Below, one piece after another: positions 47,610 to 62,569 of a DNA stretch of 64,000 nucleotides. A model generated the notes under the pieces. That model searched no databases. It saw only the letters and a program-made list of their open reading frames with translations, and was not told where the DNA came from. The position numbers were made by a program, and so were the translations under genes. The stretch covers positions 34,218 to 98,217 of the forward strand of contig MFYT01000007.1 in assembly GCA_001789205.1 (NCBI GenBank), given 5' to 3'. The stretch is from Candidatus Raymondbacteria bacterium RIFOXYA2_FULL_49_16. Lineage in GTDB: Bacteria > Fibrobacterota > OXYB2-FULL-49-7 > XYB2-FULL-49-35. Position 1 is the stretch's first letter. Every line of letters begins with the position of its first letter.

Positions 47610-50147
47610 TTATTTAATCAACATCATCCTGCGGATACCAGTATAGGTTTCTGCATGCATATGGCAATAATAGATCCCGCTGGACAGGCGTGAGTTCTGT
47701 AGTGTCAGTGAATGGCGCCCCTTTGGCAAATTCTGATCAAGAACCTGTAAAACCATTTTTCCATCAATCGAAAAGACCCGCAGCGTGACATGGCTGGCAG
47801 TTGCCACATAGAGACCGATCATAGTACTCGCGTTGAAAGGGTTGGGGCGGTTTTGTTCCAGTATGGTGGTCCTGGTATCCCGTGGTCCGTTGTTCTCAAC
47901 ACCGATACTGTCGATGATGAAATTAACCCTAATGGTTGTGTCTGCGCTGGAGGTCAGATAAAAGGAGTTGGCAGAGACGTCCAAGCCTCCCCAGTCTTTA
48001 AAAGCGTAACCTGGTTTTGCGATTGCGACCAGCGGCAGCGGGTTTCCATTGAAATACCCGCCTGACCAGAGACTATCCGCAACAGGAACCGTGTTTACCA
48101 TGACGCTGCCTTTTTCAGGATCAGGATTGCGTATGGTCAGAACATATGTGCCGCTGAGGTTGAATTTCTGAAGCACATGGTCCCGAACGACCGGACGCCG
48201 GTTGTTGGCGAAGTAATACAGGACCTGCGTGTAATTTTCCCAATCCGGAATTCCGCCCAGGTATGCTGAACCGAATGGATCGTAGGTGCCGGCCCATTTT
48301 TCAATATGCCGGGGAATTTCCTGATCTATGAGGGCCTTGATGGAATCGATTCTCTGGCAGACATGCGCGGGGTCAAAGGTCGTGTTCATGCGGTCGGCGA
48401 ATGTGTTGATGAACCTGACTTTGAACGAGTCGCATGCGAGAAGGTTTCTGAGCAACTCGGTTGAAATGGGTTTGTTCGGATAGCTGGGTCCATTGGGGTC
48501 GGTTGCTGCGTCCAGGGAGTTTCTGGTGTAGGTCGCCGCAGTCATTGAACCCCATTGCCTTTGGCCCCATGCGCAGTCAGTATCGAAGAGGAGCCATCGC
48601 CACTTGCCTCCCGGCGTTTTCGCCTTCCACCGGCGGTAGTTGGGGCCGGGCCAGTCTGTATTGTCAATATAGATTTCAGTCACGTAATAATTTATGCAAT
48701 TTTGGATGTCCATTTTAGAACGCAGCTCTTCGTAGGTTGCGGAATCGTTCAGGTCCTGGGTCTTTACGAAATCTTGGAACAGGGTCCAGTCAACCGAGTC
48801 TCCCTCAGTCACCTGCATGCCGCCGGGGTGCCGGGACATGAGATCCACGCTATCGGGATTGACCCCATGGTGCGCCTCGAAATAATACCGGTCGTATTTC
48901 TCCCGTATATTATGGATGCCCCAGTACTTGCCGTTTAAAAAGAGCAGCGATGGCCGGTAGGCCTGGATGTCCATGTCAAGGTCCTCGGCGAGGCTGGTGA
49001 TCATTGCGTCGCGGAACATGGTCTGCTCCCAGTCGTTTCCTGAATTCCGGAAGAGCACCCGTGTATAGCTTATATACGGCAGGTTGGGAAAGATCCGGTA
49101 CGCGATTTGGTCGTAATCGTAATCACCGCGTGCATAGATGGCAAGTGTTTTCTCCGGTGATTCTCGTGTGTTGCCCCCGTAAATTTTCACTCCAGCTTCC
49201 ATGTTCAGGACTTGTTGCTTGTCTGTTTCAAAAAACTCAAGGTGAACAGGACGTTCCCAATCTTCATGGAAATTCGCGCCAACCCAAGGATAGAAAGGCG
49301 AATAGTCTGTCCCAAAGGTATAGATGCCCATACTGTCGTCAAAGAAGTTGACTGGATCGGTAACCAGCGAAATGACCGGCAGGCTCGAAGAGTCGTTTAT
49401 AAAATAGGTTTTGGAAATAACCGGACTTGGCGCCATGTTCGCTTCAATGGTCCGGGCCCTGATAACCGTGGTATGTGAAATTGATACTGGCGTAGTGTAC
49501 GGGGTTGCCTGGGCGTTTGGTTCGCTGCCATCGAGAGAATAATAGACGGTCCCGGTTGTTCCTTGGCGGGCAAGGGTCACCAGTATCTGGTCAGCGTAGA
49601 ACCCGCTTTCCATGGAAAAGACGGGAGAGAGGGAGATCCCACTCCCGGGCGCAGTGCTGTTTGCGGCAATGGGCGTTGGACGATCAAAAAAATAGTGCGA
49701 GGTGTCGCCATCAGGATACCTGCCATAGCTGATGTCTCTGTAGAGCGCGGGTACATTGCACATGTCGACAAGCACGCCAGCGCTGTTGTGCAGAAATATG
49801 GCCTCACCGTTGGCGCTTATCTTAAAATTTGTATGCATGGGGTCTGTGTCTTTCCTGTCCTCTTCAGACGCGAATACGGCCATGTAGGCGTGGGGTTGCA
49901 GTGTTGTGGCGGGAAAGACCCATTTGAAGGGTTGGCTGTAATTGTCCGAGATGCCAAAACCGGAGAGGTCTACCGTTGAGTCACCGGTATTATACAGTTC
50001 AATCCAGTCTTCGTATTTCCCTTCCGCCGTGGAAAGGGTGAAGACATTGGATGACATCACTTCATTGATAACGATTGATTGGCCTGGCGCATATGCCGCC
50101 GGACCCATGATGGCAGCGGCGCACAATGCCAGGGTGTGGAGACGCAC
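47610..50147 (-). CDS. Secreted CotH-family protein with lamin-tail, chitobiase-like and T9SS-type C-terminal domains
   Basis: 845 residues. Signal peptide about 1-23; lamin-tail domain about 24-150 (INEVMSSN, DWIELYNTGDSTVDLSGFGI); chitobiase C-terminal-like domain about 175-255 (YYSLDGSEP); CotH domain about 260-590 with GVKIYGGNTR, LNGKYWGIHNIREKYD and KWRWLLFDTDCAWG; an InlB-type repeat about 690-770; and an 80-residue end domain with NRPNPFNAST and a GIYYCHM strand, as in T9SS/FlgD sorting domains. CotH proteins include atypical kinases. The GTG start immediately follows the stop of the upstream UroD-like gene with no Shine-Dalgarno, so translation is probably coupled. Confidence 0.85.
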   Translation of the reverse strand: MRLHTLALCAAAIMGPAAYAPGQSIVINEVMSSNVFTLSTAEGKYEDWIELYNTGDSTVDLSGFGISDNYSQPFKWVFPATTLQPHAYMAVFASEEDRKDTDPMHTNFKISANGEAIFLHNSAGVLVDMCNVPALYRDISYGRYPDGDTSHYFFDRPTPIAANSTAPGSGISLSPVFSMESGFYADQILVTLARQGTTGTVYYSLDGSEPNAQATPYTTPVSISHTTVIRARTIEANMAPSPVISKTYFINDSSSLPVISLVTDPVNFFDDSMGIYTFGTDYSPFYPWVGANFHEDWERPVHLEFFETDKQQVLNMEAGVKIYGGNTRESPEKTLAIYARGDYDYDQIAYRIFPNLPYISYTRVLFRNSGNDWEQTMFRDAMITSLAEDLDMDIQAYRPSLLFLNGKYWGIHNIREKYDRYYFEAHHGVNPDSVDLMSRHPGGMQVTEGDSVDWTLFQDFVKTQDLNDSATYEELRSKMDIQNCINYYVTEIYIDNTDWPGPNYRRWKAKTPGGKWRWLLFDTDCAWGQRQWGSMTAATYTRNSLDAATDPNGPSYPNKPISTELLRNLLACDSFKVRFINTFADRMNTTFDPAHVCQRIDSIKALIDQEIPRHIEKWAGTYDPFGSAYLGGIPDWENYTQVLYYFANNRRPVVRDHVLQKFNLSGTYVLTIRNPDPEKGSVMVNTVPVADSLWSGGYFNGNPLPLVAIAKPGYAFKDWGGLDVSANSFYLTSSADTTIRVNFIIDSIGVENNGPRDTRTTILEQNRPNPFNASTMIGLYVATASHVTLRVFSIDGKMVLQVLDQNLPKGRHSLTLQNSRLSSGIYYCHMHAETYTGIRRMMLIK

Positions 50148-51248
50148 TTAGTACCGTCCGAATTCGAGCGCAGCCTCGTACATGGCCACGATGTTTTCGG
50201 GAGGAACGTCGTCCTGGATGTTATGGGAGGGTGCGAGTATGTATCCGCCGCCGGGCGCCATGATATCGAGTATGCGTTTCACCTCATCCCGGACTTCCTG
50301 GGGCTTTTTATAGGGGAGTACTTTTTGAACGTCAATACCGCCGTGGAAAGTGATCTGTTTGCCGAATTCCTTTTTTAGCCTGGCAGGGTCCATGTCAGCG
50401 GCTGAGATTTGGACCGGGTTGAGTACCTGCACGCCAGCTTCCATGAGACCTGGAATGAGTTGATAGACCGAACCGCAGCAGTGGTGAAAGATGGCGGCTT
50501 GAGTCCGCTTTTTTACCGCGTCCATGTAGCGTTTCTGATAGGGAACGATGAGTTCCCTGTACATTTCAAGAGAGAAAAAGGGGCCGGTTTGCATGGCAAG
50601 GTCGTCGCCAAATTGCGTCATGTCGACAAGGCTGCCGCATGCACTGTAGTAGTTGAGCGCGAATTTTTCCTGCAGCTGGGTTATTTTTTCGAACAGGGCA
50701 TGGACAAAATCCAGGTCAGCGACAATATCCATGAGCATGCGCTCAAATCCGCAGAGCCAGCATGATAGTTCAAACACGCCGTCAATATCGGGCTGCGCGA
50801 CAACGGCAAAACCTTTTTCGCGTAATACTTGGGCGGCATCGTACGTATGCTCGTACCTGCCCGTACCCGAATCATCGGGCCAGGGATATGAAGCAAGGTC
50901 TGCTATTGACGCATTTTTGAGGACAAAGTCAACGATCTGATTGTCGCCGCTGGAATATATACGGGTTATGCCCCATTCGTCGGTTGTGGAGCCATCGGGA
51001 TTACCTCGCGTTTGGGCATGGGCGGGCTTTTTAGCGTCAACGCGTCTGAAATCAATGTCAAAATGCTCCAGGATTTTTTCAGACGGAGTGTAACTGTCGT
51101 CGCCTGCTTTGAAGGGGACGCCCATGTACGCGCAGAGGCGTTTATAGGCAGCTGGTTTTATGCCACAAAGCCATCCGCCGAAATCAACAGGGACTCTGTC
51201 CGCTTCCTGGTGGGCGAAGCATTTCAGAACGCGTTCGCGATGAGTCAT
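50148..51248 (-). CDS. UroD-superfamily methyltransferase, paralogue A
   Basis: 366 residues. Starts THRERVLKCFAHQEADRVPV, the form of MtaA/MtgB-like methyltransferases; the HemE substrate motif (RQAGR) is absent. A His256-x-Cys258 pair (FHHCCG) sits at the zinc position of MtaA/MtbA, but the third ligand position carries His342 (APSHN) instead of Cys. Family members move methyl groups between a corrinoid protein and a thiol or substrate. It starts three bases after the corrinoid-protein gene, strong evidence that the two work together; the substrate is unknown. Confidence 0.85.
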   Translation of the reverse strand: MTHRERVLKCFAHQEADRVPVDFGGWLCGIKPAAYKRLCAYMGVPFKAGDDSYTPSEKILEHFDIDFRRVDAKKPAHAQTRGNPDGSTTDEWGITRIYSSGDNQIVDFVLKNASIADLASYPWPDDSGTGRYEHTYDAAQVLREKGFAVVAQPDIDGVFELSCWLCGFERMLMDIVADLDFVHALFEKITQLQEKFALNYYSACGSLVDMTQFGDDLAMQTGPFFSLEMYRELIVPYQKRYMDAVKKRTQAAIFHHCCGSVYQLIPGLMEAGVQVLNPVQISAADMDPARLKKEFGKQITFHGGIDVQKVLPYKKPQEVRDEVKRILDIMAPGGGYILAPSHNIQDDVPPENIVAMYEAALEFGRY

Positions 51249-51251
51249 GAC

Positions 51252-51890
51252 TTAGGCTGCAAGCAATGACCTGCAGAGTTCAGCAGCACGGCTTGCGTCG
51301 GGTGCATATCCCGAGGCGCCGATTTCATCCGCGTATTTCTGGGTTACCGGAGCGCCGCCAATGACCGTTTTCACGGTACCTGAAAGGCCAGCCGCTTTGA
51401 CTGCGTCGACAGTGGCTTTGATCATGGGCATGGTGGTGGTGAGAAGCGCGGAAAGGCCTATGAGCTTGACGTTAGGATTTGCCTTGAGGAATTCCACGAA
51501 TTTTTCCGGTGACACGTCGATGCCCAGGTCGTGCACTTCGATGCCGCTTCCCTCGACCATGATTTTTACCAGGTTTTTTCCGATGTCGTGCAGGTCGCCT
51601 TTGACTGTTCCAATCACCATTGAACCCCTGGACGAGGACGTACCGGCAATCAGGTGGGGCTTTAAAAGCGTGACCCCTGCATTAAAGGCGCGGGCGCCAA
51701 CGAGCACATGGGGAACGAATATCTGGTTATTCTTGAATTTTTCACCGATAATGGACATGGCCGCGAGGAGACCTTGATCAAGGATCTCGTTGGCCTTGAC
51801 GCCTTTGGCCATATGGTCGTTTACAATTCTTTTTACATCTTCCGCTTTGCCTTTTTGGACCATGTCAATGAGTTCATTGTATTCAGCCAT
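51252..51890 (-). CDS. Corrinoid (B12-binding) methyl-carrier protein, MtaC/MtbC-like
   Basis: 212 residues from ATG 51890, behind AAGGAGG; a longer frame to 51965 crosses the promoter and was rejected. N-terminal helical cap (about 1-85), then the cobalamin fold: GTVKGDLHDIGKNLV with the Asp99-x-His101-x-x-Gly104 His-on motif, the GLSALLTTTM loop (145-154) and VIGGAPV (177-182). It would carry a methyl group on cobalt between two methyltransferases. First gene of a unit with UroD paralogue A and the CotH gene. Confidence 0.93.
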   Translation of the reverse strand: MAEYNELIDMVQKGKAEDVKRIVNDHMAKGVKANEILDQGLLAAMSIIGEKFKNNQIFVPHVLVGARAFNAGVTLLKPHLIAGTSSSRGSMVIGTVKGDLHDIGKNLVKIMVEGSGIEVHDLGIDVSPEKFVEFLKANPNVKLIGLSALLTTTMPMIKATVDAVKAAGLSGTVKTVIGGAPVTQKYADEIGASGYAPDASRAAELCRSLLAA

Positions 51891-51936
51891 AAAGACCTCC
51901 TTAAAAAGTGTTTTTATCTCCTGAATTTCATACAAA

Positions 51937-51965
51937 TATATATAATTGCAGACAACAAATCCCAA
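51937..51965 (-). promoter_or_regulatory. Candidate promoter for the corrinoid-protein operon
   Basis: On the minus strand TTGGGA (plus 51960-51965) and TATATA (51937-51942) with a 17-base spacer, about 40 bases before the corrinoid gene's ribosome-binding site and start. It lies in the 125-base divergent gap shared with the UroD-thioredoxin gene. Confidence 0.5.
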
Positions 51966-52015
51966 TATCTATGTTATTAATGTAATGTAGATACAGATTC
52001 TAAAAGGAGCGCCAA

Positions 52016-53635
52016 ATGACAGGCAGGGAAAGAGTCCGTAATGCGTTGCAACTCAAAGAGGTAGATCGGGTGCCGTGGGTCCCTTTTGTCGGTTGCCATG
52101 GCGGGTATCTGATCAATGTGCCAGCAGAAGAATACCTGAAATCAGAGAACCATATTCTTGCGGGAATAGATGAGGCAGTAAAACGATATGCGCCCGACGG
52201 TCTGCCGGTCATGTTCGATTTGCAGGTAGAGGCTGAAGTGCTCGGGTGCAACCTGGTTTGGGCAAAGGAGAATCCACCAGCGGTCTCGACTCATCCGCTT
52301 GCAGAGGGGCACTCACTCACTGATCTGTGTATTCCCGGACCTGATGAAGGCCGGATAAGGACCGCGCTTGCCGCTGTCCGAAGAGCCCGTGAAAAATATC
52401 CTGATTTGGCCCTCTATGGGCTTGTTACCGGACCTTTCACTCTGGCCATGCATCTTGCAGGAACCGATATATTCATGAAGATGTTCGATGATCGGGACTC
52501 TGTCCGCACATTGCTCGCGTTCTGCCGGGACGTGTCGTGCGCAATGGCTGGATATTATATCCAGGCAGGATGCGATGTGGTCGGCGTTGTGGATCCCATG
52601 ACCAGTCAGATCGGACCCGACGAATTCAGGCAGTTTGTCACACAGCCGGCAACAGCAGTCTTTGATCATATCAGGAACCAGAGTGCGTTTGGCTCCTTTT
52701 TTGTATGCGGTCATGCGGAACAGAATATTGAGGCAATGTGCGAATGCAGACCCGACAATATTTCCATTGATGAAAACATCCCCCTGGACTATGTCCGCGA
52801 CATATGCCTGGCCCGCAACATCAGCTTTGGCGGAAATCTCCAGCTCACGGTGGTACTCCTTCTGGGGTCCGCTGAAGACGCAATGCGCAATGCCATTGGA
52901 TGCCTTGAGACCGGCGGGACAAAGGGTTTTATATTGGCGCCGGGTTGCGACCTTCCTTTTGCCACGCCCCCCGCCAATCTTGAGGCAGTGACCAGAATAG
53001 TGCAGGACCCCTATCAGCGCGAGGTTGTCAATGCCATGGCGCATAAACAGACCGCGGAGAAAATTCTGGACATGAGCCAATACGGGCAGGCGGACAAGGT
53101 GGTAGTGGATATTATTACGCTCGATTCCGAGTCATGCGCCCCATGCCAGTATATGGTTGAAGCGGTGAGGAGCGTGACTCCGGAATTCGAAGGTATTGTT
53201 GAGTGGCGCGAACACAAGATCAAGCAGAAGGAATCCATTGTGTTTATGACAGCCCTCATGGTGCGCAATATTCCGACAATCTGTATCGACGGGCAGATAA
53301 CCTTTGTATCGCGCATTCCTCCGCGGGAAGAGCTGGTTGCCGCGATCCAACGGCGGATCAATGAGAAGCTGAAGAAAAAAATCCAGGCAAAACAATCGGT
53401 CATGTATGTGCTGGGCACAGGCTGTGAGGCGTGTGAAACTGTCAAGAAGCATGCGGTACAGGCAATCAAGGAATTGGGCGCCAATATTGTCATTAAAGTA
53501 ATCAAGGACGAGGATGAAATCCGTTCTTTCGGGGTGTCCAAGACCCCCGGCGTGGTCATTGAGCGCAGGCAGATCAAGTCAGCGGGCGCCATTCCCTCGG
53601 TCGAGGTGATAAAAGAATGGGTGAAGGAGTTGTGA
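52016..53635 (+). CDS. UroD-superfamily methyltransferase fused to two thioredoxin-like domains, paralogue B
   Basis: 539 residues. Residues 1-345 form an MtaA-like UroD barrel beginning TGRERVRNALQLKEVDRVPW; the zinc region reads Phe229-Val-Cys231 (HxC has lost its His) and Cys311 in APGCDLPF is kept. Two thioredoxin-like modules follow: one with Cys374-Ala-Pro-Cys377 and a cis-Pro at 420 (RNIPTICIDG), and a smaller one with Cys470-Glu-Ala-Cys473 and Pro511 (SKTPGVVI), resembling archaeal MTH895-type thioredoxins. The tail could reduce a thiol acceptor or the corrinoid. Strong AAAAGGAG start; overlaps the CobW-like gene by 19 bases and is divergent from the corrinoid operon. Confidence 0.88.
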   Translation: MTGRERVRNALQLKEVDRVPWVPFVGCHGGYLINVPAEEYLKSENHILAGIDEAVKRYAPDGLPVMFDLQVEAEVLGCNLVWAKENPPAVSTHPLAEGHSLTDLCIPGPDEGRIRTALAAVRRAREKYPDLALYGLVTGPFTLAMHLAGTDIFMKMFDDRDSVRTLLAFCRDVSCAMAGYYIQAGCDVVGVVDPMTSQIGPDEFRQFVTQPATAVFDHIRNQSAFGSFFVCGHAEQNIEAMCECRPDNISIDENIPLDYVRDICLARNISFGGNLQLTVVLLLGSAEDAMRNAIGCLETGGTKGFILAPGCDLPFATPPANLEAVTRIVQDPYQREVVNAMAHKQTAEKILDMSQYGQADKVVVDIITLDSESCAPCQYMVEAVRSVTPEFEGIVEWREHKIKQKESIVFMTALMVRNIPTICIDGQITFVSRIPPREELVAAIQRRINEKLKKKIQAKQSVMYVLGTGCEACETVKKHAVQAIKELGANIVIKVIKDEDEIRSFGVSKTPGVVIERRQIKSAGAIPSVEVIKEWVKEL

Positions 53636-54552
53636 GCAGGCGTCCCATCCCCGTTATCCTGATCACGGGGTTTCTTGGCGCTGGTAAGACAACGTTTCTG
53701 AATCACCTGCTCGGACTTCCTGAAATTTCCTCCCAAAAGCTTGCCCTGATCATCAATGAGTTTGGCGCTATTGGATTCGACAGCGCGCTTGTTGCCAAAG
53801 GATCCCATGCCACCTACGAACTCAACAAGGGAAGTCTTTTCTGTATCTGCATTAAAACGGATTTCATAAAGACCCTTGATGCAATAACCGCAGCTTCTGA
53901 TATCGAACTGGTTATTATCGAAGCCACAGGGGTTGCGGAGACGCGCGATATTGAAGGTTTTTTCTCCGCACATCAGACAGCGGGCCTTTTTGAGATACAT
54001 GCCAATCTCTGTCTTGTTGATGCTCTCAATTTTATCACCGTGGTCCCGTATCTCAAAGCAGTCCGCAGTCAGGTTGCCTGGGCTGACGGCATTGTTCTGA
54101 ATAAAACAAGCTTGATTTTAGCGCAAGAGACGGATAAGCTTGTATCGGTCCTGAGGTCGATAAATCCAGCAGCGCCCATTCTGAGGACCGATTTTGGCAG
54201 CATCCCCTTTGATTTTCTTGCAGGACTGAAACATGTACGTCGAGACGGACCATTGCTTGATGCGCCACCTGAGGCAGTGGTTTCCGTTTCAATTGAAAGA
54301 GATGCGGTGCTGGATCGGGAGGCGTTCATCAGGCTGACGGAACAGATTAAGGGAAATATTCTGCGGCTTAAAGGTCATACTGATTTCGGTTCTGGCCCGG
54401 TGTTCGTTGAAATAGTGGGGGGGCGCCTGCTGGAAAAAGCGGTTTCGTACCAGATAACAACCAGGACCGCTTTTACCGTGATCGCCTGGAAGATGAGGCG
54501 CGAAGAACTGACCAGATTGTTCTCGCAGGTCTTTAAAGAGCCTTTTACTTGA
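53617..54552 (+). CDS. CobW/COG0523-family GTPase
   Basis: 311 residues from ATG 53617, preceded by GAGGTGAT. G3E GTPase fold with Walker A GFLGAGKTTFLN (18-29), INEFG (46-50) and IIEATGVAE. The metal-binding loop, usually GCxCC, is shifted to GSLFCIC (72-78), retaining a Cys76-x-Cys78 pair. C-terminal CobW domain with LRLKGHTDFG. COG0523 proteins insert metals or service cofactors. Its overlap with a methyltransferase gene suggests it delivers zinc to, or reactivates, the corrinoid/methyltransferase system. Confidence 0.88.
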   Translation: MGEGVVSRRPIPVILITGFLGAGKTTFLNHLLGLPEISSQKLALIINEFGAIGFDSALVAKGSHATYELNKGSLFCICIKTDFIKTLDAITAASDIELVIIEATGVAETRDIEGFFSAHQTAGLFEIHANLCLVDALNFITVVPYLKAVRSQVAWADGIVLNKTSLILAQETDKLVSVLRSINPAAPILRTDFGSIPFDFLAGLKHVRRDGPLLDAPPEAVVSVSIERDAVLDREAFIRLTEQIKGNILRLKGHTDFGSGPVFVEIVGGRLLEKAVSYQITTRTAFTVIAWKMRREELTRLFSQVFKEPFT

Positions 54553-54583
54553 AAACCGCTTCACTAAAACCTATTTTCTTTAC

Positions 54584-54892
54584 ATGGCATTACTTTGCAA
54601 ATCACTGGTGTTGTTAGTGGCGGCGTTCTTGCTGTGCGCTCCAGTAGACAGTTTATCCGGTCTTCAGTCTTCGAATGTTCAAATTGAACAGACCGGTTCG
54701 TGCACTGACACTCCATGTTTTAGTGTCAGTGTCCGTTCGGTGCGCCAAGTCCGGCACGTGCATACGTCATCTGCCCATGTCGTGGCCTCGCATCCTTTTC
54801 TGAATCAGGCGTCCGAGGCTTTTCGCGTGGGAAGCAAGGCGCCTGTACACACACCTCCCAGTTTACTCGCCTCGGTTATTCTCAGAAACTGA
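54584..54892 (+). CDS. Small secreted protein of unknown function
   Basis: 102 residues. Hydrophobic signal segment MALLCKSLVLLVAAFLLCAP followed by a Ser/Val/His-rich region with Cys in GSCTDTPCFSV and three His in HVHTSSAHVVASH. No Shine-Dalgarno is seen. Lies 31 bases after the CobW-like gene on the same strand, so it might be a co-expressed metal-related protein. Recognisable domain absent; coding status moderately supported by the signal peptide and position. Confidence 0.5.
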   Translation: MALLCKSLVLLVAAFLLCAPVDSLSGLQSSNVQIEQTGSCTDTPCFSVSVRSVRQVRHVHTSSAHVVASHPFLNQASEAFRVGSKAPVHTPPSLLASVILRN

Positions 54893-54939
54893 TTTTTCTT
54901 TTCCCAATTTATAATCAATTTATTATAAAGGAGAGGCAT

Positions 54940-55149
54940 ATGCCAAAACTACATAGATTTATCAAAGTGAAAAAAGAGGCCCGGTTTTTTGAACCGCATG
55001 TTTCCAACGCCTTACTGCAAATGGGAGCGAATCTTGGTGATGGGAAACTTGAAGGGTTTCAGGTGGTGAATGTTAACGCGAAAAACCGCGAAAGCGTGAT
55101 AAAATATCTCGAGGAAAACGGATATTCTATTGAAGATACTGAGCAGTAG
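54940..55149 (+). CDS. Conserved-looking 69-residue cytoplasmic protein
   Basis: 69 residues behind a strong AAAGGAGAGG. MPKLHRFIKVKKEARFFEPH starts a small alpha/beta protein ending VIKYLEENGYSIEDTEQ. No signal, no Cys, family not recognised. The good ribosome-binding site and balanced composition make it a likely real gene. Confidence 0.65.
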   Translation: MPKLHRFIKVKKEARFFEPHVSNALLQMGANLGDGKLEGFQVVNVNAKNRESVIKYLEENGYSIEDTEQ

Positions 55150-55156
55150 GGGTTGA

Positions 55157-56050
55157 TCAGCAACCGAACCGTTTCAATAGTCCATTATAGGCGTCGATTC
55201 GCCGGTCACGCAGGAATGGCCAAGCGCGGCGGACCTTTTCCGTGCGATTCAGGTCCAGGGCCGTAACAACAAGATCCTCCTTGGTATCTGATGCTCTGGC
55301 AAGAATTTCTCCCTGAGGACCGGCAATAAAACTGTTTCCCCAGAACACGATACCTTTGTTTGTCTTTGTAGCATGCTCAGGACTTTTTTCAAGGCCGACT
55401 CTGTTTATAGAGACAACATGGAGGCCATTGGCAATTGCGTGGCTTTGCTGCATTGTTGTCCATGCGAGCAACTGGCGCTTCTTTTCAGCGGCCGTGTCTG
55501 ACGGCTCCCAGCCAATTGCCGTGGGGTAGATAAGCAGGTCTGCACCGTTTAAAGCCATGAGACGCGCTGCTTCAGGATACCACTGGTCCCAGCACACCAG
55601 GACACCGAGTTTGCCCACTGACGATGCAATAGGGGTGAAGCCGAGGTCACCAGGAGCAAAATAATATTTTTCGTAATACGAGGGGTCGTCGGGGAGGTGC
55701 ATTTTTCTGTATATACCTGCAATCTTACCTGTTTTTTCAATCACCACGGCCGTGTTATGATAGAGGCCTGCTGAGCGGCGTTCGAAAAGAGAGCCGACAA
55801 GCACGGTTTTTGTCTTTTTTGCAGCGGTACAGAGGAATTTCATGGTTGGCCCAGATATGGGTTCGGCAAAATCGAAGCATGCAGGGTCTTCGGTCTGGCA
55901 AAAATAGGGGGTTGCGTGCAGCTCCTGAAGACAGACCAGACGCGCTCCTTTTCTGGCAGCTTCGGCTATTTTTTGCCCTGCTTTTTCCAGATTTTGTTTT
56001 TTTGACGGACCGCAGGTCATTTGTACCAATGCAATAGTCATAGGTTTCAT
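55157..56050 (-). CDS. aguB: N-carbamoylputrescine amidase
   Basis: 297 residues from ATG 56050 (MKPMTIALVQMTCGPSKKQN); a start twelve codons upstream is possible. Nitrilase-superfamily triad: Glu43 (LQELHATPYF), Lys116 (YRKMHLPDDP) and Cys153 (LVCWDQWYPE). The IGWEPSD and AWTTMQQSHAIANG segments are typical of AguB. Hydrolyses N-carbamoylputrescine to putrescine, CO2 and ammonia. Overlaps aguA by four bases, so the pathway enzymes are coupled. Confidence 0.94.
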   Translation of the reverse strand: MKPMTIALVQMTCGPSKKQNLEKAGQKIAEAARKGARLVCLQELHATPYFCQTEDPACFDFAEPISGPTMKFLCTAAKKTKTVLVGSLFERRSAGLYHNTAVVIEKTGKIAGIYRKMHLPDDPSYYEKYYFAPGDLGFTPIASSVGKLGVLVCWDQWYPEAARLMALNGADLLIYPTAIGWEPSDTAAEKKRQLLAWTTMQQSHAIANGLHVVSINRVGLEKSPEHATKTNKGIVFWGNSFIAGPQGEILARASDTKEDLVVTALDLNRTEKVRRAWPFLRDRRIDAYNGLLKRFGC

Positions 56051-57084
56051 GAGAGTACCCCTGCGGGAAGCTGCATGGTAAGGCAATGGAGAGAACCGCC
56101 CTGTTCAATAACAGGCAGGCAATTGATGCCTATTATTTTTCGTTTTGGAAAGGCCATACTGATTCGCGCCAATGCGATCTGGTCGTTTCGTTTTTGGCCA
56201 TAGGTGGGGACAAGGACAGCATTGTTGATCACAAGAAAATTCGCATAGGTTGCGGGACATCTCTGGTTTTTCCGGCCAAAACAAGGGTCGGGAAGCGGTA
56301 AGCCGGCGAGACAATAGCGAGTTCCCCGGGAAGTGGTATATAATTTCAGTTCCGATTCCATGGCTTGCAGTCCTTCATAATGGACATCGCGCGGATTGCC
56401 GCACTGTACGTAGAGAATGGTATTTCCCGGGGCAAACCGGGCAAGAGTGTCGATGTGGGAGTCCGTATCGTCTCCTTCAAGACCGCCATGGTTGAGCCAG
56501 AGAATCGAGCGGGCGCCCAGAAAGGTTTTCAACTTTTTTTCAATGGCTGTTTGCGATAAAAGGGGGTTTCTCCTCTTTTCACGCAGGCACTGCGCAGTGG
56601 TCATAATTGTTCCCGCGCCGTTGCTATCAATACTACCACCCTCCAGGACCATGGCGGCTGTTTTATGATGCGCTCCGGGAAAAGAACCGCCCGCATGCAT
56701 GGTATGAGTGGCTCTGTTGTCGAGATTCGCGGCATGTTTACGGCCCCAGCCATTGAACGAGAAATCGAGCATGACCGGCTTTTTTCCGGAATACACGGTG
56801 ATCGGGCCATAATCGCGCGTCCAGATATCATTGGTCCGCATGGGTACGTATACAATGCGCGAAAGCAACGCGTTTTTTATCCGTAAAAATTGTTTGACAT
56901 GCGTTTCTTTCCCCGTGGGAACAATGAGCACCACTCTTTCGTAGCGGGTGATTACGGCCACTATATGTGCGATGACTGGTTCTATGGCGTTGAGCATTGG
57001 CGCCCAGTCAGAATGTTCGTGGGGCCACGCGAGAAGAACCGCGTCCTGGGGTTCCCATTCAGCGGGCAGGCGAAAAGAAGGCAT
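56047..57084 (-). CDS. aguA: Agmatine deiminase
   Basis: 345 residues. Contains the guanidino-modifying motifs RTNDIWTRDYGPI (about 83-95), the Asn-rich LDFSFNGWG region, GGLEGDDTDSHIDTLARF and the catalytic Cys334 in GGSLHCLTMQ. Converts agmatine to N-carbamoylputrescine, feeding AguB. The gene follows the ABC-F gene by 16 bases in the minus-strand operon. Confidence 0.94.
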   Translation of the reverse strand: MPSFRLPAEWEPQDAVLLAWPHEHSDWAPMLNAIEPVIAHIVAVITRYERVVLIVPTGKETHVKQFLRIKNALLSRIVYVPMRTNDIWTRDYGPITVYSGKKPVMLDFSFNGWGRKHAANLDNRATHTMHAGGSFPGAHHKTAAMVLEGGSIDSNGAGTIMTTAQCLREKRRNPLLSQTAIEKKLKTFLGARSILWLNHGGLEGDDTDSHIDTLARFAPGNTILYVQCGNPRDVHYEGLQAMESELKLYTTSRGTRYCLAGLPLPDPCFGRKNQRCPATYANFLVINNAVLVPTYGQKRNDQIALARISMAFPKRKIIGINCLPVIEQGGSLHCLTMQLPAGVLS

Positions 57085-57100
57085 GAAGCAAAAATACTAT

Positions 57101-58957
57101 TTATTCCAGGCCAAGCGCGCGCTCCTCTTGGTCGAAAAGCTGTTTTTCAGCCTCATAGTGCTCTGATGTACGGTGCCATTCGTGATACAGACTGTCTATC
57201 TGTTCCCGGGCATGGTCAATGGATTTTGAAAGGCGCACCATTTCCTCCCGGTCAGGGACCCGTGAGGCTTCAACCAGTTCGTGGCTCTCGGTTTCGATTC
57301 GCTTTTCGAGTGAGGGGATGGCAGTTTCTATCTCCTCCAGGCGCTGTTTTAAAGGGTTGATCGCCTTTGCCCGCCGTGTGAAAAAATCAGCGCGAGCTTT
57401 ACGAGTATCTTTTCGTGAAACCGTTTTATCGTCGCGTTTTTTTTGATTTTGTTGCGATAGAGGCGTTGCATCCTCTTCCTCTTCCCAGCCAATACGCTCA
57501 AGAAATTCGTCGTAGGTTCCGTGAAAGACCAGGATGCGGCCTTTCTGGAACACAATGAGTTTTTGCGCAACGGCCCGCAGCAACCGTTCGTTGTGAGTGA
57601 CCACGATCGATGCGCCTTCGAAGCGATTGAGCGCATCGATGAGCGCCTCGCCTGATTCCATATCGAGGTGGTGGGTTGGTTCATCGAGGAGCAGCAGGTT
57701 GGCTGGCGCGGCGATTATTTTTCCCAGCAGAACACGGCATTTTTCGCCGCCCGATAGAACAGCGATTTTTTTAAGCGCATTGTCGCCCTGGAACATCATA
57801 GAGCCGCAGATGTCGCGCGCTGCTTTGCGGCCCGCTTCGGGATAGGATGCCGCAATTTCCTCCTCGACCGACAGCGTATCGCACAAACCAGCGGTATTCG
57901 CTTGTTCAAAGTAGGACATGCGTACCTGCGGATGAAAGGCGATTCTCCCGGCTTTTTTTTCGAGCCCGCCGGCGAGCAGCTTGAGCAGGGTCGTTTTTCC
58001 CTTGCCGTTTTTCCCGATCACGCAGATGCGGTCGCGTGCGGTCACGTCGATGGAAAAGCCGCTGATGAGGGTGTTGTCACCGTATCCAAAGCCGAGATCG
58101 CGCACCTCAAGCACGTATTTTGCCGGAAAGTCAGCTTTTCTGAACGAGAAGGAGAGCGTGGTAATGGCGTCGAGCTTGTCTTTTTTCTCCATTTTCTCCA
58201 GAGTTTTGATGCGCGACTGTACCATATTGGCTTGCCGCGCCTTTGCCCTGAATTTGCTGATAAATTCCTCCATTTGCCGCTGTTTGCGTTCGGTGTTCAT
58301 CCGTTCCTTCTCGTAGACCTCCTCTTCGAGCGCCACCTGGCCATAGTAGTCGCTTGTTTTACCGCTTATTTTTTTTGCCCGGGCCCGGTGAATGCCTGCG
58401 ATATGCGTGGCAATGGAATCCATAAAACCGCGGTCGTGGCTTATGAACAGAAGTTCGCCGTCCCACGCGCATATAAAACGAACGAGCCATCTGATTGAGA
58501 CAATGTCGAGAAAATTTGTGGGTTCGTCGAGCAGCAGGCAGTGGGGATCGGAGACCAGCACTTTGGCCAGGTTTATGCGCACTTGAAAACCACCGGAAAA
58601 CTCAGCTGGGGGGCGTAAAAAATCGGCTTCTGAGAAACCCAGGCCCACCAGCACCTTACAGACGCGCCATTCGTTTGTCGCCCGGTCCGCCCGCAAGCCT
58701 GTGCAGGCCTCGTCGAGTACTGTGGGCTTGGTGAACCTGATGTGCTGTTCCAGATATCCAATGCGGAAATCTTTCTGAAATGTGATGGTGCCAGTGTCGG
58801 GTAGTTCACTGCCTGCGATGATCCTGAAAAGCGTGGTCTTTCCATGGCCGTTTCTGCCCACCACACCTACCCGTTCACCGGGGTTTACGGTAAAGGTAAC
58901 GTCCTCGAAGATACGCTGGGTGCTGTAGCTTTTTGAAAGGCCCTGGATGGAAATCAT
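57101..58957 (-). CDS. ABC-F family ATPase (Uup/EttA-like)
   Basis: 618 residues, two ABC cassettes and no membrane segments. First cassette: Walker A GRNGHGKTT, signature FSGGFQVRINLAK, LLLDEPTNFLD. Linker about 190-290 is charged and helical. Second cassette: GKNGKGKTT, signature SGGEKCRVLLGK and LLLDEPTHHLD. A basic linker and C-terminal coiled coil (about 540-618) resemble Uup. ABC-F proteins act on the ribosome; resistance or housekeeping roles cannot be separated here. The gene lies seven bases after UroD paralogue C. Confidence 0.93.
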   Translation of the reverse strand: MISIQGLSKSYSTQRIFEDVTFTVNPGERVGVVGRNGHGKTTLFRIIAGSELPDTGTITFQKDFRIGYLEQHIRFTKPTVLDEACTGLRADRATNEWRVCKVLVGLGFSEADFLRPPAEFSGGFQVRINLAKVLVSDPHCLLLDEPTNFLDIVSIRWLVRFICAWDGELLFISHDRGFMDSIATHIAGIHRARAKKISGKTSDYYGQVALEEEVYEKERMNTERKQRQMEEFISKFRAKARQANMVQSRIKTLEKMEKKDKLDAITTLSFSFRKADFPAKYVLEVRDLGFGYGDNTLISGFSIDVTARDRICVIGKNGKGKTTLLKLLAGGLEKKAGRIAFHPQVRMSYFEQANTAGLCDTLSVEEEIAASYPEAGRKAARDICGSMMFQGDNALKKIAVLSGGEKCRVLLGKIIAAPANLLLLDEPTHHLDMESGEALIDALNRFEGASIVVTHNERLLRAVAQKLIVFQKGRILVFHGTYDEFLERIGWEEEEDATPLSQQNQKKRDDKTVSRKDTRKARADFFTRRAKAINPLKQRLEEIETAIPSLEKRIETESHELVEASRVPDREEMVRLSKSIDHAREQIDSLYHEWHRTSEHYEAEKQLFDQEERALGLE

Positions 58958-58964
58958 CGGCGTT

Positions 58965-59969
58965 TTACTGGTTCTGCAACACGTCGATCATTGCCGCGAT
59001 GTTTTCAGGCCGTGCGTCCGCGGGTGTGTCGTGGGCGGGCGAGGCGATATACCCGCCGTTTTTTCCCACCACATCGAGCAGACGGCGTACTTCATCGCGT
59101 GTTTGCGCGGGTGTTCCGTAGGGAAGGGTCTGCTGGGTGCTTATGCCGCCGTAGAAGGTAAGTGATTGGCCAAATGTTTCCTTCATCTTCGCCACATCGA
59201 TGACCTCGGGCTGAAAAGGGTTGAAAATATTGAGCCCGCATTCGATAAGGTCGGGAAATATCTCATCGATTTTTCCGCATGAATGAATGGAAACGAATTT
59301 ATCTTTGGATCTGGCCAGGCCATACATCTTTTTCACACGGGGTTTTATATATTCACGCCACATATCGGCGCCCATGATAAGACCGTTCTGCTGGCCCCAA
59401 TCGTCGCCAAAATGCATGATATCGATGTCAAAGGAGCAGGCGCGTTCAATGATCCGGAGGTTAAAGTCGAGGATTTTGTCCATAAGCCGATGTACAAAAT
59501 CAGGATCTGTGATCATATACATGAGCAGATTTTCCATTCCCGTCAGCGTCCATGCCCGTTCAAAAAGGCTAAAACCAATAGATGAAAAATACAGTCCATG
59601 GGGATTGTCTTTAATGATTTTTGAATACGCCGCGTACCGTGATGGGTCGTTGGGGTTTGGAAATACGAATTCGTCGAAGGTTTCTGCGGTTATGGCGGTG
59701 TTGCAAACCACGCCAATATCCTTGTCCACACTCCGGTCCCAATGCACGCCGAATTGGTCGCGCCAGATGTCCGGTTTTATTTCTTGCCATGCACCGTCAG
59801 GTTCAGTGGAAAGCTTGCAGAAACAATTCCCCAGTTTTTTATCGAATTCCGGATCATTGTAGTATTTCACCATTTTTTCCCGGGCCGCAAGGGTAAAGTT
59901 GATGTTGTAGGGGATTTTATCCGGTTGCCTGTGATTCAGGGTAGTAAGCACACGTTTCCGTATTTCCAT
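58965..59969 (-). CDS. UroD-superfamily methyltransferase, paralogue C
   Basis: 334 residues behind AAGGAGCAGAC. N-terminus MEIRKRVLTTLNHRQPDKIP is MtgB/MtaA-like; no HemE RQAGR motif. Zinc-position residues are His229-Ser-Cys231 (HSCG) and His313 (SPAHD), the same pattern as paralogue A. It contains MHFGDDWGQQNGLIM, the conserved barrel segment before the substrate loop. Downstream of the sulfatase by 30 bases in one minus-strand operon, so the two may process one compound. No corrinoid gene is beside it. Confidence 0.85.
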   Translation of the reverse strand: MEIRKRVLTTLNHRQPDKIPYNINFTLAAREKMVKYYNDPEFDKKLGNCFCKLSTEPDGAWQEIKPDIWRDQFGVHWDRSVDKDIGVVCNTAITAETFDEFVFPNPNDPSRYAAYSKIIKDNPHGLYFSSIGFSLFERAWTLTGMENLLMYMITDPDFVHRLMDKILDFNLRIIERACSFDIDIMHFGDDWGQQNGLIMGADMWREYIKPRVKKMYGLARSKDKFVSIHSCGKIDEIFPDLIECGLNIFNPFQPEVIDVAKMKETFGQSLTFYGGISTQQTLPYGTPAQTRDEVRRLLDVVGKNGGYIASPAHDTPADARPENIAAMIDVLQNQ

Positions 59970-59999
59970 GTCTGCTCCTTATTGGCCGTAAAAGTCCCT

Positions 60000-61400
60000 T
60001 CAAAATGTCCGTTTGTCCCATGTAATGGGAACCGTGTCAACCGTATCCAGCAGCCAGTGCAGCAGCATTTCACGCATATCTTCGCATGTAGACGCATGTG
60101 CGTTGTCATGCGCGCAATTGCGCGTTTCGCGGGGATCGTTGAGCAGGTCGTACAATTCGTGGTGTTCACCTGGGCAGTAAATATACTTGTACTGGTTTGT
60201 CCTGACCATCAGGGTCTTGGCAAAGACTGCGGGGTCTTTTGCCGGCAGGTGGGTCTTTTCCCGGTATATTCCCGAGCTAATCAATGGTTCGCGGCAATGC
60301 GCTTCGTCCGGGAGGTGGCCCGCTTCGGCAAAGACCGCGTTGCGCAATGCGCTGGAAAAAAGGCTCCTGCTGAAGGTGCGGTTCTTTGGTTTGATCCCGG
60401 CGATATCGAGGACTGTTGCGTAGAGATCGGTCATCTCGACGAGGCGGTTGCACGCGCCTTCCGGTTTTTTGCCAGGCGCTTTTATTACCAGGGGAACGTT
60501 GATAATGCAGTCCTCGAACCCGGTCCACCATTTTTCCGTGAGCCCGTAGTCGCCTGTGTAATCACCATGATCAGAGAAAAAACAGAGCGCGGTCTCATCG
60601 TAGAGTCTTGTATCGTGCAACGTGCGCACAATACGGCCAAAGAGATCGTCCATTCTGCTGATCATGCCGTAATAGATACCCTTGATTTCCCTGAATTCAT
60701 CGGTGGTAAGGCCATTGAGACCATAGGCCTCATGAATCATGCGCGCATATCGCCGTTTCTCGTTGCCGCAATAGGGGACGGGTTCAGGAAGTTTTGACCG
60801 GTCGTGCAAAGAAAACCAGGGTTCTTCAACCTCGTACGGAGGATGGACAAACTCCAGAGGTAAAAAAAGACAGAAAGGTTTTTCATGCTTTTGGCCGAGG
60901 AATTGCACTGCGCTCTCGATGCATGCCCAGTCGAAATCCTTCCACTCGGTTCCCGGCCGCTTGCCGTACAAAAATGATTTTTCGAGACGGTGTCCCTGCG
61001 GCCATGGATTTGCCATGTGCTCTTGTGCTTTTTTTATTGGAAGATTGACCCTGTCAAAGCTGAGCGAGACCGACTCCTCCGCCAGCAGGTCGTTTTTCCC
61101 GAAACAGACCGTGTGATATCCGGCCTCTTTGAGGTCGCGGAAGAGGTTTCGCTCGTGCGCATGGAGAAGATGGGCAAGGGTCCGGTGGCCATGCACATGC
61201 GGATACAGCCCAGTGAACATGCTGCAGCGCGACGGAGTGCAGACCGTATGCTGGGAGAAACAATTGGTGAAGGTTGTGGCTTCAGCGCGGAATTGATCGA
61301 GGTGGGGCGTTTGCGGTCTATAGGGCGCTTTGAACAACACATCGGCCCGCAAAGTTTCGGGCATGAAAAGGACGATATTAGGAGGACGCTTTGCTCGCAT
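60000..61400 (-). CDS. Cysteine-type sulfatase without signal peptide
   Basis: 466 residues. Sulfatase signature Cys54-Thr-Pro-Ser-Arg58 in HTVCTPSRCSMFTG, so it needs formylglycine maturation (not encoded here). Later metal site FSDHGDYTGDYGL (Asp277, His278). The usual N-terminal metal pair Asp-Asp/Gln is Glu-Thr (MPETLRAD), an unusual choice. The start MRAKRPPNIVLF has no signal peptide, implying a cytoplasmic enzyme acting on an imported substrate. It may alternatively be a phosphonate or phosphoester hydrolase relative, but the CxPxR motif favours sulfatase. Lies between two UroD-like genes. Confidence 0.88.
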   Translation of the reverse strand: MRAKRPPNIVLFMPETLRADVLFKAPYRPQTPHLDQFRAEATTFTNCFSQHTVCTPSRCSMFTGLYPHVHGHRTLAHLLHAHERNLFRDLKEAGYHTVCFGKNDLLAEESVSLSFDRVNLPIKKAQEHMANPWPQGHRLEKSFLYGKRPGTEWKDFDWACIESAVQFLGQKHEKPFCLFLPLEFVHPPYEVEEPWFSLHDRSKLPEPVPYCGNEKRRYARMIHEAYGLNGLTTDEFREIKGIYYGMISRMDDLFGRIVRTLHDTRLYDETALCFFSDHGDYTGDYGLTEKWWTGFEDCIINVPLVIKAPGKKPEGACNRLVEMTDLYATVLDIAGIKPKNRTFSRSLFSSALRNAVFAEAGHLPDEAHCREPLISSGIYREKTHLPAKDPAVFAKTLMVRTNQYKYIYCPGEHHELYDLLNDPRETRNCAHDNAHASTCEDMREMLLHWLLDTVDTVPITWDKRTF

Positions 61401-61402
61401 GG

Positions 61403-62569
61403 TCAGCAGACCCCGTAGGTACGGGTGAGATCAGCGATTTTTCGGACCATTTCAATGTCTCCCCGGTTCGGCATAATATCGCCCACGTTGAGAATGAGCC
61501 GGTCGTTTACTTCATCGATGATCCTTTTTGCGAAATCAAGGATTTCCCCCTCTTCCATGCGCTGGATGAAGAAGGGCGACGGCACGCCGCAATAGGCGTA
61601 TTGCCGTGAAGCAAGCGCGGCCCGCAGGGTACGCGGTTCAAAATCGTTCATGGGCGCGGGCGTGCACCCATCGAGCACGTCGAAGCCGTTGTCCTTCACC
61701 ATGGGGAGCAGATTGGTCATGCGGCCATCCATGTGCGTAAGGGTCTTTTTACCCGTTTTTCCGTGGATGTATTCGTTGAACCGCTGGTAGTAGGGGAGGA
61801 AATAATCGCGGTACCAGTCGGGCGCAATGAGGAACTCGTCCATATTGTCGCACAGGTAGATCACTTTACCGGGCGATCCGGCCACTAATGGCCAGACGCG
61901 CTGACAGTTTTCGTCAAGTACCTGCAGGATACGCTTGACTTTGTCAGGCTCGTCGAACAAGGCAAAGGCCGTTTGTTCAATGCCCATATAGTCGTGCACC
62001 AGATTGCCCATGGGTGAACGGCCAACCACCATGTTCACATATCCCTGGCTGTCCACGGTATCAATCGCTGTTTGCGCCCGAGCATAGTCGGCCGTATATT
62101 CGCGGTCGGTTACGATGTATTCGAGAATCGGAAAATCGTCCGGGCTTTTTACCATGTATTCGCGCGTGCACGAGCTATGGTCATCGGCCCTGGAGGTGAG
62201 GGCCCGAAGGGTCCCCTTGGGTGTTACATAGGTGGTTATGGTGTCTTTGTCCCTGGTCTCCGTTGTTATCTTCACGGTTTTATAGGTGGTTTTCATGAAA
62301 ATGCCATACCCGTGAATGGGTATGCCAAAATCAACATCGCGCGCGATCTGAAATAAGTTCATGTCTTTATATCGTTCCGGCATAATGCCGGGCCTGCTGT
62401 TTATTTCGGCATCGGGTGGGATAATACCGCCTGGCGGATAGACCTTGGGCCACTGCTGCTCGTCACCATACCGTTGCCATTGGTACCACATGGAAATGTC
62501 GGGGAAAAAGGGAACGCGATCAACAGACTTTCCGCTGATACGGTTGAGAAAACGGTCGCGATGGGTCAT
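61403..62569 (-). CDS. Divergent UroD-superfamily protein, paralogue D
   Basis: 388 residues from ATG 62569 (MTHRDRFLNRISGKSVDRVP), behind AGGAG. It is the most divergent of the four: the zinc-site positions read His279-Met-Asp281 (THMDG) and Asp364 (VGDIMP), with no Cys at either. An insertion-rich N-terminal half contains FFPDISMWYQWQRYG. Same barrel layout (LDEPDKVKRILQ-like FDEPDKVKRILQVLD, WYRDYFLPYYQRFNEYI). Possibly a different chemistry than cobalamin methyl transfer. First gene of the operon that continues to aguB. Confidence 0.8.
   Translation of the reverse strand: MTHRDRFLNRISGKSVDRVPFFPDISMWYQWQRYGDEQQWPKVYPPGGIIPPDAEINSRPGIMPERYKDMNLFQIARDVDFGIPIHGYGIFMKTTYKTVKITTETRDKDTITTYVTPKGTLRALTSRADDHSSCTREYMVKSPDDFPILEYIVTDREYTADYARAQTAIDTVDSQGYVNMVVGRSPMGNLVHDYMGIEQTAFALFDEPDKVKRILQVLDENCQRVWPLVAGSPGKVIYLCDNMDEFLIAPDWYRDYFLPYYQRFNEYIHGKTGKKTLTHMDGRMTNLLPMVKDNGFDVLDGCTPAPMNDFEPRTLRAALASRQYAYCGVPSPFFIQRMEEGEILDFAKRIIDEVNDRLILNVGDIMPNRGDIEMVRKIADLTRTYGVC

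Follow-up and report, generated by a model that had tools for sequence, protein, structure and literature searches.

What reaction, if any, is served by a corrinoid protein whose gene lies among those of UroD-like proteins and has no classical methyltransferase partner? We addressed this question in a 64,000-nucleotide stretch of contig MFYT01000007.1 (positions 34,218 to 98,217; hereafter the window) of Candidatus Raymondbacteria bacterium RIFOXYA2_FULL_49_16, for which an initial annotation had proposed an undescribed methyl-transfer system composed of one corrinoid carrier and four UroD paralogues, termed A to D. UroD-superfamily methyltransferases open methylated compounds to anaerobes, and to our knowledge most members of the superfamily have no known substrate. 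The locus proved to be real and functional-looking and belongs to a known class, UroD-superfamily corrinoid methyl transfer; what appears to be new is a widespread subfamily, not found described, in which a UroD-thioredoxin protein (B) accompanies a CobW GTPase carrying an FCxC motif. All four paralogues are indeed present in the window, out of 20 UroD-domain genes in the genome, and the module shrinks to A, B, the carrier and CobW, which together probably strip methyl groups from some methylated compound.

Organization of the core locus

The genes named in the initial annotation were all found where it had placed them, and their families were confirmed by Pfam (Table 1). The core is a divergent pair, with the corrinoid gene and A forming one operon on the minus strand (3-bp gap) and B and CobW lying on the plus strand, where the start of CobW overlaps the end of B. 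A strong ribosome-binding site (AAGGAGGTCTTTATG) accompanies the corrinoid gene start at 51890 and the start of B reads AAAAGGAG..ATG, so that the two genes diverge over about 125 bp, in agreement with the proposed coupling of the corrinoid gene to A and its divergence from B and CobW; an Rfam scan near the core returned no riboswitch. The claimed lack of a classical partner was upheld as well, MttB and MtaB being found neither in the window nor anywhere in the host genome (5.4 Mb, 100% complete).

The UroD-thioredoxin protein B and its CobW neighbour

Among solved structures compared by sequence, B matched MtaA (4.8e-23), and its AlphaFold model (mean pLDDT 87.6) superimposed on MtaA with a Z score of 42.5 and a root-mean-square deviation of 1.8 Å over 324 residues, above the best value obtained for HemE (Z 37.0). 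B gave the strongest URO-D score in the genome, yet its 64.1 bits lie far under the HemE cut-off of 302.95, and HemE identity was rejected on scores of this kind; those against MtaA (128.8 bits, cut-off 400), MtbA (118, cut-off 600) and mtaA_cmuA (148.6, cut-off 235.4) also stayed below threshold. In the phylogenetic tree the B family was monophyletic (support 100/100) and grouped with the soluble coenzyme M methyltransferases (SCMTs; MtaA) and Mlps (83.4/93). The divergence that the initial annotation had ascribed to the paralogues held for A and B, both of which fall outside the MtaA branch and under the MtaA, MtbA, MtaA/CmuA and HemE family cut-offs.

The His-Cys-Cys zinc triad of MtaA reads Phe-Cys-Cys in all 46 aligned members of the B family, an alignment that includes near-duplicate Desulfoluna sequences; among 26 more diverse members, F229, C231, C311 and D312 are invariant, as are C374 and C377 of the first thioredoxin domain. 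This first domain weakly resembles HUIPC (seleno)thioredoxin. In the second, the CxxC motif is kept only in the window B among the long members compared. The literature searched here and below consisted of open-licence papers, in which no description of a UroD-thioredoxin protein was found.

The CobW protein has a G3E GTPase domain (Pfam) whose metal motif reads FCIC (FCxC) in place of the GCxCC conserved in COG0523 proteins (PMC2770081), and xFCxC is shared by 32 of 37 homologues from the neighbourhood set. It is the sole COG0523 gene in the genome, the other match being a 224-aa HypB/UreG-like frame, and no CobW gene was detected by tblastn near the other UroD genes of the host. COG0523 subfamily 13 has already been noted beside mtaA/mtaB and corrinoid genes (PMC2770081), so that an association of COG0523 proteins with corrinoid methyltransferases as such is already known; a CobW with the FCxC motif was not found described.

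Conserved neighbourhoods of B

We found 54 B-family loci in about nine phyla, with records from Planctomycetota, Lentisphaeria/Verrucomicrobiota, KSB1, Spirochaetes, Bacteroidales, Clostridia, Desulfobacterota, Anaerolineae and Acidobacteriales. Of the 46 testable loci, 27 have CobW no more than 400 bp away from B. A Pfam tally made without preselection, covering 210 neighbour proteins at 42 B loci, showed CobW as the commonest domain (at least 32 proteins, 14 + 18), ahead of B12-binding (at least 12, 2 + 10) and then of URO-D, RACo and PocR. Among all 54 loci, 19 contain a corrinoid gene and 10 a RACo gene. Most full-set Desulfoluna loci combine B, RACo, two MttB-type proteins, a corrinoid protein and CobW; in Desulfoluna limicola (locus L042) an A-relative occupies the place of MttB, together with the corrinoid protein, B, RACo and CobW. 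An A-relative, B, CobW, UroD and a corrinoid protein also stand together in Anaerolineae (L051), and a similar set (A-relative with B, corrinoid protein and CobW) occurs in another member of the host's phylum (L121). This recurrence of the A/B/corrinoid/CobW set in distant phyla shows that the neighbourhood is conserved and supports the proposal of a corrinoid methyl-transfer system with a UroD-type first methyltransferase. B stays while the first methyltransferase varies between A-type and MttB-type, which favours an acceptor-side or general role for B, and the B-CobW pair (Planctomycetota, Bacteroidota, Desulfobacterota and Clostridia among about nine phyla) looks like a shared component for different substrate enzymes.

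The same loci bear on a rather unlikely alternative, in which B would act on the donor side and pass to the carrier a methyl group taken from a methylated sulfur, selenium or arsenic compound, its thioredoxin reducing a mixed disulfide or the released selenol or thiol, with A as a second donor-side enzyme and the enzymes of contig C78 (see below) as acceptors. Donor-side demethylation onto the carrier has been proposed for Mlp2 of type 1 mlp gene clusters (MGCs; PMC10418091), and the Cys-rich site of B suits soft ligands (PMC10418091). A homocysteine methyltransferase gene beside B (L021, L038, L119, L121) would then encode the separate acceptor enzyme, and the HUIPC-like first thioredoxin domain and the presence of SelA in the genome count in the same direction. 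However, a donor-side B would be redundant where it accompanies MttB-type first methyltransferases, as in Desulfoluna, and the window locus showed neither selenium nor arsenic genes. Homocysteine methyltransferase or MetH-activation-like genes occur near B at L021, L033, L038, L054, L119 and L121; at L021 the order is regulator, B, CobW, corrinoid protein, UroD, homocysteine methyltransferase, MetH-activation-like protein (PF02965) and UroD.

Several B loci carry further genes. The Desulfoluna clusters L044, L047, L048 and L058 (UroD-thioredoxin B, RACo, two MttB, corrinoid protein and CobW, accompanied in some cases by HisD-like and DegT genes) are possibly undescribed quaternary-amine-type systems, and no paper on Desulfoluna methyltransferase loci was found. 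PocR-AraC regulators adjoin B-family genes in several phyla (L032, L034, L054, L057, L061) and may point to an inducing compound. A protein of 370-445 aa with YGCCEP or YGCCER, found by the UroD profile, adjoins B-family genes at L121 (10179-11456, a copy with no Pfam match), L026, L045 and L061 and is a possible further type of first methyltransferase. A B-family gene with 42% identity (L135, 119-1495) adjoins a radical-SAM-like gene on a 26-kb plasmid of the gut bacterium Subdoligranulum variabile. Of 167 genomes from the host's phylum, 3 contain B and one has a close A-relative; the module is patchy and probably moves horizontally.

The corrinoid carrier and paralogue A

The carrier matches structure 1y80 (E 1.2e-60), contains both the B12-binding and the B12-binding_2 domain and has the DxHxxG motif in the form GDLHDIG. 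It scored 150-190 bits against NCBIfam corrinoid models, under their equivalog cut-offs; with MtgC_2 at 189.9 bits (cut-off 370), MtbC at 169.4 (350) and MtaC at 101.7 (420), no equivalog of known substrate was reached. The genome encodes three B12-binding_2 proteins, namely MetH, the window carrier and an orphan on contig C50, and the claim of a single carrier was therefore nearly right, the other free corrinoid protein being this orphan among signalling genes. No methyltransferase gene lies close to the orphan (L068, 8537-9163), which is surrounded by phosphodiesterase, PAS and STAS-like signalling genes and is possibly a B12-based sensor.

At the MtaA zinc-ligand positions A reads H-C-H. 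Its model (mean pLDDT 87.5) has the UroD fold with Z scores of 25-28, HemE (27.9) and MtaA (25.6) being not separable, and its bit scores were 30.4 against HemE (cut-off 302.95) and 58.1 against mtaA_cmuA (cut-off 235.4). The tree places A, C and D apart from the MtaA/Mlp/B group, in a broad assemblage of UroD-like proteins whose internal branches are weakly supported. The sequence comparison of A with O-demethylase-type proteins covered CdmB and gave no significant match (E 0.27); CdmB was also absent among the structural matches listed for A and B, which excludes nothing. A is likely a substrate-specific methyltransferase, because its relatives adjoin B, the corrinoid protein and CobW in Desulfoluna, Anaerolineae and the phylum-mate, and gene arrangement, that is the operon shared with the carrier and the recurrence in L042, L051 and L121, ties it to methyl transfer.

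An unlikely alternative holds that A is no corrinoid methyltransferase at all and belongs to a large genomic group of UroD-like proteins acting by other chemistry in the catabolism of polysaccharides or sulfated sugars, so that only B and the carrier would transfer methyl groups. A does group with C and numerous other paralogues of the genome, some of which lie near genes for AraC regulators or secreted proteins, it lacks the Cys of the PGC motif, and only one or two free carriers are available for 20 UroD genes. Against this, the A gene lies 3 bp from the carrier gene, A-relatives occur with carrier, B and CobW in other phyla, and the adjacency of UroD and corrinoid genes recurs at L133, L136 and L137. 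The run at L133 (3572-7616), on a Peptoclostridium acidaminophilum plasmid, consists of sugar ABC transporter, DUF4091, corrinoid protein, UroD and MetH-activation-like genes and suggests that a carbohydrate-type compound is demethylated by way of a corrinoid. The plasmid collection did not yield CmuA.

Partner genes elsewhere in the genome

Two RACo genes were found in the genome, on contigs C78 and C79, and none on the window contig. The RACo gene of C79 adjoins those of CODH/ACS, whose alpha/beta and gamma subunits score 1046 and 496 bits (cut-offs 800 and 306, respectively). Close to the RACo gene of C78 are genes for a homocysteine S-methyltransferase (PF02574, 293 aa) and for a pterin-binding methyltransferase of 291 aa, the latter most like methyl-folate:corrinoid/Fe-S protein methyltransferase. 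Pterin-binding genes occur only on C58, C96 and C78, none of them within 20 kb of the core. Judged by its gene content, the genome holds a candidate gene for every step of a corrinoid methyl pathway, though unlinked. The initial annotation had pointed to the nearby GcvT and PFOR as the downstream route. These were rejected as partners, since related loci, among the matches listed, show neither of them as a recurring neighbour domain, and the plausible route is the C78 set (RACo, pterin-binding and homocysteine methyltransferases) together with CODH/ACS on C79.

Proposed mechanism

From gene content, protein families, active-site residues, neighbourhoods and the presence of partner genes we infer, with moderate confidence, a corrinoid-dependent methyl-transfer module in which A loads the carrier, B serves the thiol side and CobW serves B. 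A, co-operonic with the carrier, would be the substrate-specific enzyme that takes the methyl group off the donor and places it on the Co(I) of the carrier, and RACo of C78 (also C79) would reactivate the carrier cobalt. For B the most likely task is to hand the carrier-bound methyl group on to a thiol; its thioredoxin would provide or shield a thiolate at the unusual Cys-Cys metal site, and CobW would load or repair the metal there. The carrier may also give the methyl group to folate or homocysteine via the C78 enzymes, from where it would reach CODH/ACS.

Several observations weigh against this mechanism. The close relatives of A are few and divergent, with 37% identity in one phylum-mate where no corrinoid gene is adjacent, and the A clade has a support of only 73/87 in the tree. 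RACo and the acceptor transferases are unlinked to the core, and most planctomycete loci consist of B and CobW with no corrinoid gene nearby. B lacks the zinc-ligand His of MtaA and may therefore not bind zinc like MtaA. Finally, homocysteine methyltransferase or MetH-activation-like genes, but no folate-type (pterin) transferase, were found near B, which counts in favour of the mechanism; the negative half of this finding comes from a single-sequence profile and, among the matches listed, from Pfam.

In a more specific version, which we regard as very unlikely, the CxxC of the tethered thioredoxin would replace the missing His at the metal site of B and the thioredoxin thiolate would itself be the methyl acceptor or donor, with the dedicated FCxC CobW loading the site and the B-CobW unit serving many first methyltransferases across phyla.

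The sulfatase operon and flanking genes

C, the sulfatase gene and D follow one another on the minus strand, in a run extended by genes for ABC-F and agmatine degradation, and it is these added genes that separate the operon from the core. At the ligand positions C reads H-C-H and D H-D-D; D matched no PDB sequence and clusters (98.1/96) with the UroD protein of another sulfatase operon in the same genome (contig C86). C-sulfatase-D is a separate operon for which no tie to the window carrier was found. The placement of C and D around a sulfatase was thus correctly described, and their assignment to the same chain was not supported, as they belong to a sulfatase operon of their own, like other genomic UroD paralogues that lie by AraC or secreted-protein genes. 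It is quite improbable that A to D all share the one carrier as alternative first methyltransferases, with methylated products of the sulfatase substrate as the targets of C and D: carriers are few, UroD genes are many and C has the same H-C-H as A, but C and D stand in a separate operon with no carrier beside them, and D reads H-D-D.

Among the other genomic UroD loci (L073, L074, L075, L077, L085, L086, L087), neighbours are often divergent AraC regulators, a sulfatase plus DeoC aldolase, or secreted proteins. The divergent AraC regulators adjoining the paralogues were confirmed by Pfam at L074, L077, L086 and L087 and hint at substrate-induced catabolic roles. The UroD paralogues may be linked to methylated or sulfated sugars, and a sugar-linked expansion of UroD-like enzymes in the host genome is possible. 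Directly downstream of A, positions 47610-50147 encode a secreted CotH-kinase/lamin-tail (LTD) protein with a Por secretion tail; it is possibly reached by read-through from the corrinoid-A operon, and we saw no reason to count it as a member of the module.

Table 1. Features of the core locus and of the sulfatase operon in window coordinates.
Feature	Position	Strand	Evidence and remarks
UroD paralogue A	50148..51248	-	Pfam URO-D 5.8e-31; proposed substrate-specific corrinoid methyltransferase (MT1)
Corrinoid methyl-carrier protein, 212 aa, MtgC/MtbC-like	51252..51890	-	Pfam B12-binding 3.9e-25 and B12-binding_2 4.9e-17
Divergent promoter region, corrinoid gene/B	51891..52015	.	Sequence; Rfam scan without riboswitch
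UroD paralogue B, MtaA-like with two thioredoxin domains	52016..53635	+	Pfam URO-D 7.9e-53 and Thioredoxin_3
CobW/COG0523 GTPase, proposed metallochaperone of B	53617..54552	+	Pfam cobW 1.7e-34
UroD paralogue C (H-C-H), sulfatase operon	58965..59969	-	Pfam URO-D
Sulfatase between C and D	60000..61400	-	Pfam Sulfatase 6.2e-40
UroD paralogue D (H-D-D), sulfatase operon	61403..62569	-	Pfam URO-D

Comparison with known systems

The initial annotation had named MtgB as a UroD-type protein; it is instead a member of the MttB superfamily. The Bathyarchaeia 'mtgB' was reported to have no homology to known methyltransferases (PMC10989822) and is no guide for the window. With a split MetH the relatives' B loci share separate homocysteine methyltransferase, carrier and activation-domain-like genes, whereas the methyl donor here would be a compound handled by UroD proteins and not methyl-folate.

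Type 1 MGCs, as described by Kountz & Balskus, contain one carrier and several UroD-type proteins, among them Mlp2, which methylates selenide (PMC10418091). The window resembles them in having one carrier with several UroD-type proteins, RACo in the genome and no folate transferase at the locus, and could on these grounds be read as a degenerate or split type 1 MGC, which we consider extremely unlikely. Membership in this type, defined by at least two SCMT-like Mlps, a carrier and Ram in the same direction within 2 kb, was rejected: no Ram lies within 2 kb in the cluster, the genes are transcribed divergently, an order that itself disfavours the reading, only B is near the SCMTs while A is not SCMT-like, and B has Phe-Cys-Cys instead of His-Cys-Cys. 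A cluster that does resemble a type 1 MGC was seen in another member of the host's phylum (genome G054), where a corrinoid protein, two H-C-C Mlps and RACo stand in a row (L122, 6584-11000).

The UroD-superfamily O-demethylase and haloalkane systems (MtvB, OdmB, VdmB, MtoB, CdmB; PMC13222342) are similar in that A is a UroD-type candidate first methyltransferase beside a small carrier and lacks His-Cys-Cys; they differ in that A has no significant match to CdmB and the window cluster contains neither a folate transferase nor RACo. Like COG0523 subfamily 13 (PMC2770081), the window G3E GTPase adjoins MtaA-like and corrinoid genes, but it carries FCxC where GCxCC is conserved; the likeness is one of gene context.

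The SCMTs (MtaA/MtbA) share with B the UroD fold (25% identity over the 324 superimposed residues) and both Cys ligands, and B too is found beside a corrinoid protein and a COG0523 GTPase. B differs from them by the family-wide Phe in place of the His ligand, by its C-terminal thioredoxin domains and by bit scores far under the MtaA, MtbA and mtaA_cmuA cut-offs, and its host is a bacterium, whereas MtaA is a methanogen enzyme. The missing zinc ligand, the fixed thioredoxin and the unusual metallochaperone motif make B a target for studying how corrinoid-bound methyl groups reach thiols outside methanogens.

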